Below, piece after piece: positions 58,844 to 64,000 of a DNA stretch of 64,000 nt. The stretch is from Desulfomicrobium sp. ZS1. Lineage in GTDB: Bacteria; Desulfobacterota; Desulfovibrionia; Desulfovibrionales; Desulfomicrobiaceae. A program made the translations under genes and the position numbers. Below the pieces are notes generated by a model that worked only from the letters and a program-made list of their open reading frames with translations, did no database searches and was not told where the DNA came from. The stretch spans positions 62,001 to 126,000 of the forward strand of contig NZ_CP100351.1 of NCBI RefSeq assembly GCF_024204645.1, in the 5' to 3' direction. Numbering within the stretch: position 1 is the stretch's first letter; every line of letters starts with the position of its first letter.

Positions 58844-58869
58844 AAAAAAGGGCGAATCCAGGTTCGCCC
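58844..58869 (-). terminator. Terminator after the TrmO-aldolase fusion gene
   Basis: Hairpin GGGCGAA / TTCGCCC with a 6-base loop, followed on the minus strand by six T. It lies 20 bases after the stop codon and insulates the DEAD-box gene promoter from upstream transcription. Confidence 0.85.
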
Positions 58870-58888: not shown

Positions 58889-59863
58889 TCAGCGCGTCAT
58901 CGCGATCCCGGCCAGGCTCTCGAGTTCTTCGGAGAGCCCCAACGCTTGGATCATGGAGCCTCCCCAACAGACCAGCCCGTGGTTGTCCATGAACACGGCC
59001 TCGAAGTCCCGGCTGGCCAGACCCACGGCCTGGGCCAGTTCCGGAGTGCCGGGCCGGTGGGCGGGCACGCGGGTCAGCTTGTCGGCGAAGACCCGGCCTT
59101 CAAAGAGCGGGAGGTCAAGCAAAGGACCCTCGCCGCGCAGGGACAGGGCCAGAAGCTTTGGCGGGTGGGTGTGCACGATGGCTTTTGCCTGGGGCTGATT
59201 GCGATAGATATCAAGATGCACGGCAAGTTCCGATGAGGCCCGTACCGATGACAGGGGTGTTCCCGTGGCCAGGTCGACCACGGCCAGATCCTTCGGGGAG
59301 AGATGCCCTTTGGCGCTGCCGGTCGCCGTGATTATGACGCGTTCTCCTTGGCGCATGCTCACGTTGCCGTTGAATCCGGCGAAGAGGCCGCGCTGCCAGC
59401 CGTCGCGGCCGGCCGTAAGGATGGCCTGGCCCGTGTCGGGATTTACCAGGGATGAGAATTCGGTTTGGGTTGGGCTAGGGGTGTTGTCGGGCTTGATGTC
59501 GATGACGGGGGTGCCGTCGATGACCTCCAGGGGATGCACTTTGAGACGCAGTTCCTCGCGGCCGAGGATGCGCACCGCATGCAGGCCTATGGGCGTGGGG
59601 CGGTCGGGGGAGCGGGTCGAGAAGATACCGCGCATGGGCAGTTCCCTGTTTCCCTGAGGGTGGCAGCGCAGCACGCTCTGGTCGCCCTGGTGCATCCAGG
59701 TCAGGACCAGAATGGCGTCTCCGACCTGCAGGTCCGTGGCTGCCGGTTCAAAATCCGGGGTCAGTTCAATCCAAACTGGAGGCATCGAGGTCTGGCCGTA
59801 TTTTGGACACTGCTCGCGGCTTACGAGATGGGAGCGAACGGTGCCGATGACGCGAGGGTTCAT
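58889..59863 (-). CDS. TrmO (tRNA m6t6A37 methyltransferase) fused to a class II aldolase/adducin domain
   Basis: A single 324-residue frame with two unrelated domains. Residues 1-126 are TrmO/TsaA (UPF0066): the core TRSPDRPTPIGLHAVRIL and VHPLEVIDGTPVIDIKP are diagnostic for the SAM-dependent enzyme that methylates t6A37 in tRNA-Thr. Residues about 141-324 are a complete class II aldolase domain: GFNGNVSM, SSELAVHLDIY, the zinc ligands His231 and His233 in VHTHPP, Glu212 and His295 in DNHGLV. Both domains keep their key residues. The aldolase part may act on a sugar phosphate or pentulose; the reason for the fusion is unknown. AAGGATA precedes the ATG. Confidence 0.88.
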   Translation of the reverse strand: MNPRVIGTVRSHLVSREQCPKYGQTSMPPVWIELTPDFEPAATDLQVGDAILVLTWMHQGDQSVLRCHPQGNRELPMRGIFSTRSPDRPTPIGLHAVRILGREELRLKVHPLEVIDGTPVIDIKPDNTPSPTQTEFSSLVNPDTGQAILTAGRDGWQRGLFAGFNGNVSMRQGERVIITATGSAKGHLSPKDLAVVDLATGTPLSSVRASSELAVHLDIYRNQPQAKAIVHTHPPKLLALSLRGEGPLLDLPLFEGRVFADKLTRVPAHRPGTPELAQAVGLASRDFEAVFMDNHGLVCWGGSMIQALGLSEELESLAGIAMTR

Positions 59864-60091: not shown

Positions 60092-60943
60092 ATGAACCGC
60101 TTCTCCACCAGCCTTCTGGGTGAAGCCAAGACTCTGCTTCTGGCCACGGACGGTTCCCGTTTCAGCGAAGGGGCGCTGCAGGAGGCTATCTTTTTCGGCC
60201 AGGCCTGCGCCGCCCGCTTGATAGTTCTGCACGTGGTCAAAGTCGATGTCGAATCCCTCAAATCCGCCAACGCCAAGGTCACGCGCAAGCAGCAGGAGAT
60301 CGCTCCGTATCTGGAAGACGTTCGCAAGATGGCCAGGGACAGCGGGGTGGAGTGCGAAACCGTCGTGGTCGGCTCCTCGGTGCCTGAGCACGCCATCGTC
60401 GAGCAGGCCAGGAAGCGCAAGGTCGATGTCATCATCATGGGCCGTCATGGCCGGGCTGGACGGTTGTATCTGCTGGTGGGCAGCATGACCGCGAAGGTCA
60501 TCGGGCTCGGGTTTCCCATGGTGCTCATGCTCCCCAAGGATTTCACGATGACCGGGACCCATGTGCTGGTGGCCGTGGACGATTCACCGAACAGCCGTTT
60601 GGCCGTTGAGGAAGCCCTAAGCCTCGGGATGTGCTGCGTGACCCTGGAGCGACTGACCTTTGTGGCGGTCGCGCGGCGAGAGAGCGGTTTGCCCGAGGCC
60701 AGGAAAATGGTCGAGGACGTCTGTACCCGCGGCCGGGAGAAGTGGCCGCACCTTCATTTCGAGGCCGTGGCCGGGGTCGGGCATCCCTCGAACATCATCG
60801 TGCAGGCCGCCGAAGAGCGCGCTGTGGACATGATCATGATCGGCGGCATGGTCTCGGGGCCTCTGCCCAAGATGTTCAGCGGCCGGGTCACCAAGGAGGT
60901 CTGCGGCTGGGCGCACTGCGCCGTACTGGTAGTCACCGCCTAG
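60092..60943 (+). CDS. Tandem universal stress protein
   Basis: A 283-residue soluble protein of two UspA domains (about 11-147 and 153-283). Domain 1 starts TLLLATDGSRFSEGALQEA and has the nucleotide-binding-type loop MGRHGRAGRLYLLVGSMTAKVI; in domain 2 the corresponding loop is IGGMVSGPLPKMFSGRVTKEV, which lacks the usual G-x-R-G pattern. Domain 1 may bind ATP and domain 2 is less clear. Usp proteins act in stress survival. The gene lies between a divergent tRNA-modifying fusion gene and a large inverted repeat before sulP. Confidence 0.9.
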   Translation: MNRFSTSLLGEAKTLLLATDGSRFSEGALQEAIFFGQACAARLIVLHVVKVDVESLKSANAKVTRKQQEIAPYLEDVRKMARDSGVECETVVVGSSVPEHAIVEQARKRKVDVIIMGRHGRAGRLYLLVGSMTAKVIGLGFPMVLMLPKDFTMTGTHVLVAVDDSPNSRLAVEEALSLGMCCVTLERLTFVAVARRESGLPEARKMVEDVCTRGREKWPHLHFEAVAGVGHPSNIIVQAAEERAVDMIMIGGMVSGPLPKMFSGRVTKEVCGWAHCAVLVVTA

Positions 60944-61068: not shown

Positions 61069-61144
61069 GCGGAATTCAACAGTCGCCGGGTGCGTGCCGT
61101 GGGTTTTGGCTTCTTCTTCGAACCATTTGACAAGGAACGGTCTC

Positions 61145-63265
61145 ATGTCGGTCAGGCTTTTGCGATTCTTTCCCTTTCTCGCTTGGTTTCCGTTCAGCGC
61201 GCTGACCGTGCGGGCCGATCTCATGGCAGGCATCACCGGAGCTCTGGTGCTCGTGCCCAAGGCCATGGCCTATGCCCAGTTGTCCGGTCTGCCCCTCTAT
61301 TTCGGTCTGTACACCGCCTTCGTGCCTGCCATCATCGGTGCCATGTGGGGATCTTCCCGGCAATTGGCCACGGGGCCGGTCGCCATCGTCTCGCTCATGA
61401 CCGCCGCCGCCGTGACTCCGCTGGCGGTCTCGAACACGCCTGAATACATCGGTTTCGCGCTCCTTTTGACTTTCCTGGTTGGTCTCGTGCAGCTCCTTTT
61501 GGGGGTGGTCAAGCTTGGAACCATCGTCAATTTCGTGTCCCACCCGGTCATCCTCGGGTTCATGAACGCGGCCGCGATCATCATCGGATTGTCACAGCTG
61601 GACCTGTTGCTGGGTATTCCCAAAGGCCGCAGCGACTTTTTTCTGGGCGATGTCTGGGAGATGCTGCGCCTCCTTCCGCAGACCCATTTGCCGACCCTGG
61701 GGATGACCATCTTCGGGCTGGCCCTTATCCTCGCGATCAAGAGAGTTCCGGCCTTGGCCAAAGCCGGCGTTCTTGTCGCGGTGGTCATCACCATCATGGT
61801 CAGCGCCGCCATCGGTTACGATCAGCGCGGGACCGCCGTGCTGGAAGACATCGCAACCCCCCAGGCCCGGGAGCTGGTGGTTCAGTATGAAGAGAACCTG
61901 CGGCGGATGGAACAGCTGGGCGCCGAGGTGGCCGTGCTTTCCGCGCGGCAGCGGCAGGCGGAAAAGGATGATTCCGTCTGGATGGCCGCCGGACTGCGTC
62001 ATCAGACCGAGCTTGCGCAGCTGGACATGCGCTCCATGGAAAGGCGGCACAACGAGCTCCTGCGTGGCTTGCGGCAACTGCGTTTCGTGCGTCCCGAGGG
62101 CGAGGAGACCGGTCTTCTTTATCAGCGGGGCTCTTCTCCGGAGGGCATGAAGACCGATGACCGCGCTTGGCATATCAAAAGCGTCGATGGTGGCGTCATG
62201 AAGCTGGTCGGCGGCGGAGATGTTGTCGGGTCGGTTCCGGCGGGGCTGCCGGCCCTGACTCTTCCGACGTTCAGTTTCGATGCCGTGCGACAACTCCTGC
62301 CCTCGGCCCTGATCATCGCCCTGGTCGCCTTCATGGAGTCCATCTCCATGGCCAAGGCCATGGCCAGCAAGGCCCGGCAACACGTCGACCCCAACCAGGA
62401 GTTCATCGGCCAGGGTCTGGCTAACATCGGAGGGTCCTTTTTTCAGGCCTATCCGGCCTGCGGCTCGTTTACGGGGTCGGCCATCAACATGCAGGCCGGG
62501 GCAAAAACAGGGCTGGCCATGGTTTTCAATGGCATCTTCGTGGCCGTGACCCTTATGTTCTTCACGCCCTTGCTTTATCATCTGCCCAAAGCCGTGCTGG
62601 CCGTGACCATCGTCATGGCGGTAGCCAGTCTGATCACGCCCCATGCCTTCGTGCATACGTGGAAAGCCAATCGGGGAGACGGCGTTGTCGCGTTGGTGAC
62701 CTTTGCCGTGACGCTGCTCGCCGCGCCGCACCTGGACAAGGGCATCCTGACCGGCGCGGCCCTGTCCATCGGCCTCTACCTCTACCGCACCATGGCTCCG
62801 CGCGTGGCGGTGCTCGGCCGCTATACCGACGGGACCCTGCGGGATGTGAGCGTGCACCAAACCGTGGCCACCTCGACCCTGGTCACGGTTATGCGCTTTG
62901 ACGGCTCGCTGTATTTCGCCAACGTGACGTATTTTGAGGACATGGTGCTTAAAGCCGTGGCCGATCACAAGGACGCGAAGTTCCTGCTCGTGGTCGGGGA
63001 CGCCATCAATTCCATGGATTCTTCGGGAGAGGAGATGCTGCAGAATCTGGTGGGCCAGCTGCGCGAGACCGGAGTGCAGATCGTCTTTTCGGGGCTCAAG
63101 AAACAGGTCCTCGACGTGATGCGCGCCACCGGGCTTTTTGATCGCATCGGGGAAGAAAACATCTTCGCCACGGAATGCCAGGCCTTGAAGGCCATCTTCG
63201 ACCGCCTGGGTCAGGACGTGGAGGACGACGCGCTTTTCGCCCACGTCAAGGTCATGGTCTGCTAG
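61145..63265 (+). CDS. SulP-family anion transporter with a soluble insertion and STAS domain
   Basis: Inner-membrane transporter of 706 residues. The N-terminal half has the SulP signature region (GITGALVLVPKAMAYAQLSGLPLYFGLY), and membrane helices resume from about 380 to 545 (FMESISMAKAMASKARQHVDPNQE). A STAS domain fills about 575-690 (DGSLYFANVTYFED, DAINSMDSSGEEML). Unusually, about 130 residues (226-357) are inserted before VVGSVPAGLP; part of it (240-312) is strongly helical and charged, suggesting a coiled coil. Substrate may be sulfate, bicarbonate or another anion. AAGGA precedes the ATG. Confidence 0.9.
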   Translation: MSVRLLRFFPFLAWFPFSALTVRADLMAGITGALVLVPKAMAYAQLSGLPLYFGLYTAFVPAIIGAMWGSSRQLATGPVAIVSLMTAAAVTPLAVSNTPEYIGFALLLTFLVGLVQLLLGVVKLGTIVNFVSHPVILGFMNAAAIIIGLSQLDLLLGIPKGRSDFFLGDVWEMLRLLPQTHLPTLGMTIFGLALILAIKRVPALAKAGVLVAVVITIMVSAAIGYDQRGTAVLEDIATPQARELVVQYEENLRRMEQLGAEVAVLSARQRQAEKDDSVWMAAGLRHQTELAQLDMRSMERRHNELLRGLRQLRFVRPEGEETGLLYQRGSSPEGMKTDDRAWHIKSVDGGVMKLVGGGDVVGSVPAGLPALTLPTFSFDAVRQLLPSALIIALVAFMESISMAKAMASKARQHVDPNQEFIGQGLANIGGSFFQAYPACGSFTGSAINMQAGAKTGLAMVFNGIFVAVTLMFFTPLLYHLPKAVLAVTIVMAVASLITPHAFVHTWKANRGDGVVALVTFAVTLLAAPHLDKGILTGAALSIGLYLYRTMAPRVAVLGRYTDGTLRDVSVHQTVATSTLVTVMRFDGSLYFANVTYFEDMVLKAVADHKDAKFLLVVGDAINSMDSSGEEMLQNLVGQLRETGVQIVFSGLKKQVLDVMRATGLFDRIGEENIFATECQALKAIFDRLGQDVEDDALFAHVKVMVC

Positions 63266-63438: not shown

Positions 63439-64000
63439 TTATTCCAGTTCCACGAAATCCTCGATGATGAGCTTCAGCCCGAATCCGGGGAAGTTGATCT
63501 TGTACTTGTTCGGTTCCACGCGCTGGACCACCTTGCCGCGGCCGAAGATCTTGTGGCGGCAGTAGGTGCCCTGCACCGGGGTCTGGGTGCTGGATGCGGG
63601 CCGTGGCGCCGGGGCCGCGAAATCTTCGCCCGGTCCCGGGCGCGAAATATGGGCCGATGTGCTCTCCGACGTGCGTCGGGGCGTGGGCAGGGTCTGCAGG
63701 CCCACGCCGCCCGTGAACTGCTCGCGGTAGCGGCTCAGCAGATGGGCGGGGATGTCCTGCAGGAAAGGGCTGACCCGGGCCGGGGTGGTGGCGGAGAGTT
63801 CGCGGCTGTAGAGGGTCTCGGGGGAGAAGAGGGTCAGGCTGTCGCGGGCGCGGGTGCAGGCCACGTACATGAGGCGGCGCTCCTCCTCGAAGTCGTCGTT
63901 GTCGTTCATGGCGTGGCGGGACGGGAAACGGTCCTCCACCAGGTCGATGACCAGCACCGCGTCCCACTCCAGGCCCTTGGCCGAATGCACCGTGGACAGG
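63439..64000 (-). CDS. UvrD/PcrA/Rep-type DNA helicase, C-terminal part (cut by window edge)
   Basis: The frame is open to the end of the window and covers about 187 C-terminal residues. They begin with LSTVHSAKGLEWDAVLVIDLVEDRFPS (helicase motif V) and continue with EERRLMYVACTRARDSLTLF (motif VI), diagnostic of superfamily 1A helicases. The C-terminal tail ends in a tudor-like segment (CRHKIFGRGKVVQRVEPNKYKINFPGFGLKLI), similar to the RNA-polymerase-interaction end of PcrA/UvrD. The ATPase half lies outside, so UvrD cannot be told from PcrA or Rep. Confidence 0.9.
   Translation of the reverse strand, partial: LSTVHSAKGLEWDAVLVIDLVEDRFPSRHAMNDNDDFEEERRLMYVACTRARDSLTLFSPETLYSRELSATTPARVSPFLQDIPAHLLSRYREQFTGGVGLQTLPTPRRTSESTSAHISRPGPGEDFAAPAPRPASSTQTPVQGTYCRHKIFGRGKVVQRVEPNKYKINFPGFGLKLIIEDFVELE

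Follow-up and report, generated by a model that had tools for sequence, protein, structure and literature searches.

A stretch of 64,000 nucleotides from Desulfomicrobium sp. ZS1 (hereafter the window) carries on its minus strand, at 58889..59863, a gene in which a TrmO-like methyltransferase domain is joined to a class II aldolase domain. The locus raises three questions: whether the fusion is a genuine and maintained protein, which reaction each half is likely to perform, and whether the pairing of the two has a functional meaning. The original prediction had taken the first half for the TrmO that makes m6t6A37 in tRNA-Thr, and had considered a chemical link between SAM use and the salvage of 5'-deoxy- or methylthio-sugars.

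Architecture and distribution of the fusion gene

The gene encodes 324 aa from an ATG start to a stop codon at 58889-58891 in one uninterrupted frame that holds both domains, as originally described. In the window protein, Pfam places TrmO_N (PF01980) on residues 28-125 (76.4 bits, cut-off 26.8) and Aldolase_II (PF00596) on residues 147-321 (139.1 bits, cut-off 22.2). We divided the protein into a TrmO_N-like domain with the fold of a short archaeal-type class VIII SAM methyltransferase (residues 1-125; 59489..59863, minus), a linker (residues 126-143; 59435..59488, minus) and a class II aldolase domain (residues 144-324; 58892..59434, minus). An AlphaFold2 model of the window protein reached a mean pLDDT of 89 and a pTM of 0.63, with low confidence at linker residues 129-132. 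In fold searches, its TrmO half resembled AF0241 with SAM (2nv4, E 4e-13) and its aldolase half resembled class II (fuculose-1-P) aldolases (2opi, E 7e-17). The gene is divergent from a universal-stress gene at 60092. Directly 3' of its stop lies a likely intrinsic terminator, a GC hairpin followed by six T (58844..58869, minus; folding energy -18.6 kcal/mol, z -1.8), which was spotted by reading the sequence and is absent from the pattern-scan list. By this layout, with a divergent neighbor and a 3' hairpin, the gene looks like a single unit. The two-domain protein is a new combination of two known families; the part of the literature that we covered contained no description of a TrmO-aldolase fusion, although an entry for the architecture may exist in domain databases.

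The original prediction had proposed a survey of how widespread the fusion is. Ours comprised 101 genomes, namely the window genome (G000) and 100 relatives from the Desulfovibrionales. A full-length, single-frame fusion was present in 54 of them, in 52 as one match and in two (G078, G082) as two matches. The carriers span all six Desulfovibrionales families and include Desulfomicrobium, Desulfonatronum, Desulfohalobiaceae and Halodesulfovibrio. Counted from the match list, a lone aldolase half occurs in 19 further genomes and a lone TrmO half in 18. Because the assembly of G000 is a single contig and more than half of the genomes carry full-length fusions, the gene is not an assembly error. 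Pairwise dN/dS values within Desulfomicrobium ranged from 0.07 to 0.21 in the TrmO half and from 0.10 to 0.21 in the aldolase half; the linker evolved faster in most pairs. Purifying selection acts on both halves, and both are maintained. Split genes in all relatives, which the original prediction had named as a sign of a sequencing artefact or a chance fusion, are not what the survey revealed. Single-frame fusions in so many genomes, one-contig genomes included, together with selection on both halves, rule out either explanation, and we regard its probability as negligible. The fusion is old and conserved within the Desulfovibrionales.

Elsewhere in the phylum, no full-length fusion appeared among the matches listed at E <= 1e-55 from roughly 380 other genomes, and no aldolase was found at 66 stand-alone TrmO loci outside the order. 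The phylum samples included just one Desulfovibrionales family and give no measure of the frequency of the fusion within the order. Rarer fusions in other lineages are possible. One genome labeled 'Desulfobacterales bacterium' (L134) carries the fusion, and its label may be wrong. In some members of the genus (L053, L015, L016) the open frame begins well before the presumed start codon (524 aa), which is probably no more than a long open frame at high G+C.

The TrmO-like half

Escherichia coli TrmO (YaeB), the m6t6A37 methyltransferase, has the TrmO_N domain and the critical Arg and Lys in common with the window protein, but it also has a C-terminal DPRxxY domain, which the window protein lacks. 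This domain is required in E. coli, where its mutation abolishes m6t6A, and Kimura et al. express doubt about m6t6A formation by archaeal YaeB, in which the domain is missing (PMC4132733). TrmO_C/DPRxxY was absent from 100 of the 101 genomes, G000 included, and was detected only in G090. Owing to this absence, a canonical m6t6A TrmO is not supported. On sequence grounds the label "m6t6A tRNA methyltransferase" finds no support for this half, and annotating the window protein as TrmO is unsafe.

With AF0241 of Archaeoglobus fulgidus (PDB 2nv4), a short archaeal-type YaeB/TrmO_N protein, the window protein has fold, length and most SAM-site residues in common, and neither possesses DPRxxY. Proteins of the AF0241 type stand alone, whereas the window protein has an aldolase attached and differs at two conserved SAM-site positions. 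Tyr22 (59798..59800, minus) occupies the place of the SAM-contacting Gln of most homologues, and Thr90 (59594..59596, minus), equivalent to Asn88 in AF0241, stands where nearly all homologues beyond the genus have Asn. Of the earlier statement that all key residues are present, the part on the aldolase (Glu212, His231, His233, His295) held and the part on the TrmO core did not. Arg82 and Lys122 (AF0241 numbering) are invariant and kept in the window protein, and Asp111 is replaced by Glu, as in most bacterial homologues. The window half is likely a short archaeal-type SAM methyltransferase, with predicted methyl transfer.

Two alternatives bear on this assignment. First, the half could be a true tRNA-Thr t6A37 N6-methyltransferase that works independently of DPRxxY, joined to the aldolase by operon history alone and with no functional meaning. 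In keeping with this, other fusions exceed the cut-off of the TrmO equivalog TIGR00104 (93.25 bits; L054 with 120 and L065 with 116 bits), and the invariant Arg82 and Lys122 are critical in E. coli TrmO. Against it stand the near-complete lack of a domain whose mutation kills m6t6A in E. coli, the score of the window protein just below the cut-off (91.3 bits) while two other TrmO_N proteins of G000 lie above it, and the recurrence of the aldolase-TrmO pairing elsewhere. We therefore consider this alternative improbable, though it is one to be kept in mind.

Second, the TrmO-like half of Desulfomicrobium may have given up methyl transfer and now serve the aldolase only as a module for binding or assembly. 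All 16 members of the genus have Tyr, His or Ser in place of Gln22 and Thr in place of Asn88, and one whole genus dispenses with the TrmO half. The low dN/dS across the half and the retention of Arg82 and Lys122 argue for continued activity instead, and Gln22 also varies in stand-alone TrmO relatives. Loss of activity is the more doubtful of the two alternatives, and a methyltransferase of the short archaeal type is the reading we retain. The two additional TrmO_N proteins of G000 (L067:4488-5237 and L068:4763-5254) pass the TrmO cut-off without DPRxxY, and the one at L068 keeps all four SAM-contact residues.

The aldolase half and its probable role in 5'-deoxynucleoside disposal

The predicted active site of the aldolase half comprises Glu212 (59228..59230, minus) as catalytic acid/base, His231-Thr-His233 (59165..59173, minus) as metal ligands and His295 (58979..58981, minus) as third metal ligand. 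In profile alignments, these residues fall on the SSE, HxH and HG (HHG) motifs of E. coli FucA, and none of the four varies among 20 fusion proteins. An inactive aldolase domain, which had been named as a point against the original prediction, is not what we found, the predicted catalytic residues being intact. Like FucA and the Bacillus 5-deoxyribulose-1-P aldolase DrdA (PDB 6btd), the window aldolase has the class II aldolase fold, a catalytic Glu and a triad of metal-binding His. Its identity to them is low (about 26-28% in the fold search), its C-terminus is shorter than that of FucA, and it is attached to TrmO_N. In our reading, the C-terminal domain is a metal-dependent, DHAP-type class II aldolase.

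The fusion is the sole class II aldolase (PF00596) in G000. Nearly every surveyed genome has exactly one such protein, and at least one was present in 80 of 82 good genomes. MtnA exceeded its cut-off in 94 of the 101 genomes, G000 included, and the small genome G090 has neither MtnA nor an aldolase. G000 also encodes a purine nucleoside phosphorylase that exceeds its cut-off and a deaminase-like protein that, at 336 bits, stays below its own; these two could feed MtnA. A pathway entry through MtnN and MtnK was rejected, since neither had a match over the cut-off in 31 genomes including G000. Canonical MtnP was likewise not found in G000, where the weak match belongs to a purine nucleoside phosphorylase of the general type. 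The fusion and mtnA are not neighbors in the genomes that carry both (they are 2.6 Mb from each other in G000), and the G000 fusion does not lie in a gene cluster of mtnA with mtnK, mtnP or a kinase.

We propose that 5'-deoxyadenosine and methylthioadenosine (MTA) would be disposed of anaerobically through the deaminase, the purine nucleoside phosphorylase, MtnA and finally the aldolase. The latter would act on the products of MtnA, 5-deoxyribulose-1-phosphate and/or 5-methylthioribulose-1-phosphate, and would release DHAP together with acetaldehyde or (methylthio)acetaldehyde. A class II aldolase is a step of the DHAP shunt (PMC10986504, PMC6079011), and this gene set has been discussed for the recycling of 5'-deoxyadenosine and MTA in Methanocaldococcus jannaschii (PMC6302742), a route of this kind having been proposed for methanogens. 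MtnA and a class II aldolase are common to the DHAP shunt (nucleosidase/kinase or MtnP, MtnA, Ald2), the M. jannaschii route and the putative G000 pathway. In G000 they are accompanied by a phosphorylase and a deaminase-like gene. The G000 set differs in lacking MtnN, MtnK and MtnP, in the scatter of its genes and in an aldolase fused to TrmO_N. Arabidopsis DEP1, in which a class II aldolase-family domain is combined with an HAD phosphatase (PMC6079011), sets a precedent for a fused domain in methylthioribulose-1-P metabolism, although its partner domain and reactions differ from those of the window fusion.

Genomes that have lost the aldolase half bear on this proposal. All 18 TrmO-only genomes had a strong match to canonical-type MtnP, with scores above the cut-off or slightly below it, compared to 3 of the 73 genomes in which this aldolase is retained (Fisher p about 3e-16, which is overstated, the 18 genomes being close relatives). 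For the same reason, few independent MtnP events are represented. In all six TrmO-only genomes that were checked (G025, G060, G079, G081, G087, G092), another class II aldolase is encoded shortly downstream of an aldehyde:ferredoxin oxidoreductase. This neighborhood fits an aldehyde-releasing cleavage by the replacement aldolase and, by analogy through the substitution, would fit such a cleavage by the fusion's own aldolase. The literature that we covered in part described no pairing of an aldehyde oxidoreductase with a class II aldolase. The replacement aldolases that were scanned are not MtnB; they match PRK08660-type aldolases below the cut-off, except in G099, where the match is FucA-type and over the cut-off. 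In TrmO-only Desulfovibrionaceae (L111, L113, L117, L119, L126, L045), the replacement aldolase lies behind an aldehyde:ferredoxin oxidoreductase gene and has an apparent extra N-terminal stretch.

The aldolase may have a different role. Its substrate could be fuculose-1-P, ribulose-1-P or some other sugar phosphate of the DHAP type, or it could decarboxylate a related acid, the link to MtnA being incidental. The window aldolase scores under every NCBIfam equivalog cut-off (57 bits against 400 for the L-fuculose-1-phosphate aldolase model TIGR01086). Its top families, all below cut-off, are unassigned aldolases (PRK08333, 115 bits), OtnC (96 bits) and methanogen FucA (92 bits), and the domain stops about 30 residues short of the FucA end, all of which leaves room for a different substrate. 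Yet no other class II aldolase accompanies MtnA, which is nearly universal and whose products require a subsequent enzyme, and the displacement pattern with MtnP also argues against an unrelated substrate, which we judge to be unlikely. Together, the co-occurrence with MtnA, the status as sole class II aldolase and the displacement pattern place the aldolase most likely in 5'-deoxy- and methylthio-sugar salvage, in line with the original suggestion. Overall, we assign a probability of about 60% to the reading that the fusion protein combines an aldolase cleaving MtnA products with a short archaeal-type SAM methyltransferase, and that it closes the disposal route for 5'-deoxyadenosine and MTA. 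The fusion aldolase is a candidate for the final, unassigned step by which anaerobic sulfate reducers would dispose of 5'-deoxyadenosine.

The pairing of the two domains

Methyltransferases release S-adenosylhomocysteine as their by-product, not 5'-deoxyadenosine or methylthioadenosine, and S-adenosylhomocysteine does not enter the aldolase route. The chemical link between SAM use and salvage that had been considered for the fusion therefore does not follow.

The two domains are also linked outside the fusion. Three genomes from a different lineage of the phylum (G179, G212, G293) have separate aldolase and TrmO genes, the former extending into the start of the latter. The gene order is phosphatidylinositol-phosphate-synthase-like gene, class II aldolase, TrmO, with overlapping ends (L220:2756-4378, L221:6150-7903, L222:4464-6100). 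The aldolases of these pairs form one clade in the aldolase tree, so the overlap is probably one event. At L235, the same synthase-like gene precedes TrmO and an aldolase is lacking. The oxidoreductase-aldolase cluster of G092 directly adjoins a TrmO gene at its start, an adjacency that may reflect the oxidoreductase instead. The fusion, the overlapping pair and G092 make two or three separate physical links between TrmO and an aldolase, which suggest a meaningful pairing but fall short of proof, and this recurrence offers a testable lead on the function of short archaeal-type TrmO_N proteins. One speculative explanation, to which we give little weight, is that these proteins are not RNA methyltransferases and act in or on 5'-deoxynucleoside salvage, for instance through methylation of one of its small molecules or proteins. 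If so, the fusion, the overlapping pair and the G092 cluster would be three traces of one link between TrmO_N and salvage, and a function would be indicated for a widespread unassigned protein family.

Within the order, the partners of this presumably bifunctional protein are made together and are not obligatory to each other. Either half has been lost in place at one uvrD-thiL locus. Downstream of uvrD and thiL, the full fusion is found at L032 and L062, the aldolase alone at all eight loci L033-L040, and TrmO alone at L043, L044 and L049; these one-half versions belong to some Desulfovibrionaceae. Where thiL occurs without a nearby uvrD, it is followed by the fusion (L050, L065) or by TrmO (L041, L042, L047). 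In the aldolase tree, stand-alone aldolases are scattered among the fusions, a pattern consistent with loss of the TrmO half. Some TrmO-only groups likewise fall between fusions in the TrmO tree, whose forks are weak and whose 130 columns are too few for resolution. As a whole genus has lost the TrmO half, this half is dispensable for the aldolase, and because each half survives alone in some relatives, no obligatory channel between them is needed. At L043 (4736-6154, minus; G081), a 473-aa frame matches ThiL (thiamine-phosphate kinase) together with a TrmO domain, possibly a second kind of TrmO fusion.

In the window itself, the end of uvrD was called from the sequence at 63439-64000 and is matched in the sister locus L051; two genes intervene. 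A long SulP-type transporter frame at 61094-63265 (plus strand) contains, within its membrane part, about 130 residues of unusual, charged and coiled-coil-like sequence.
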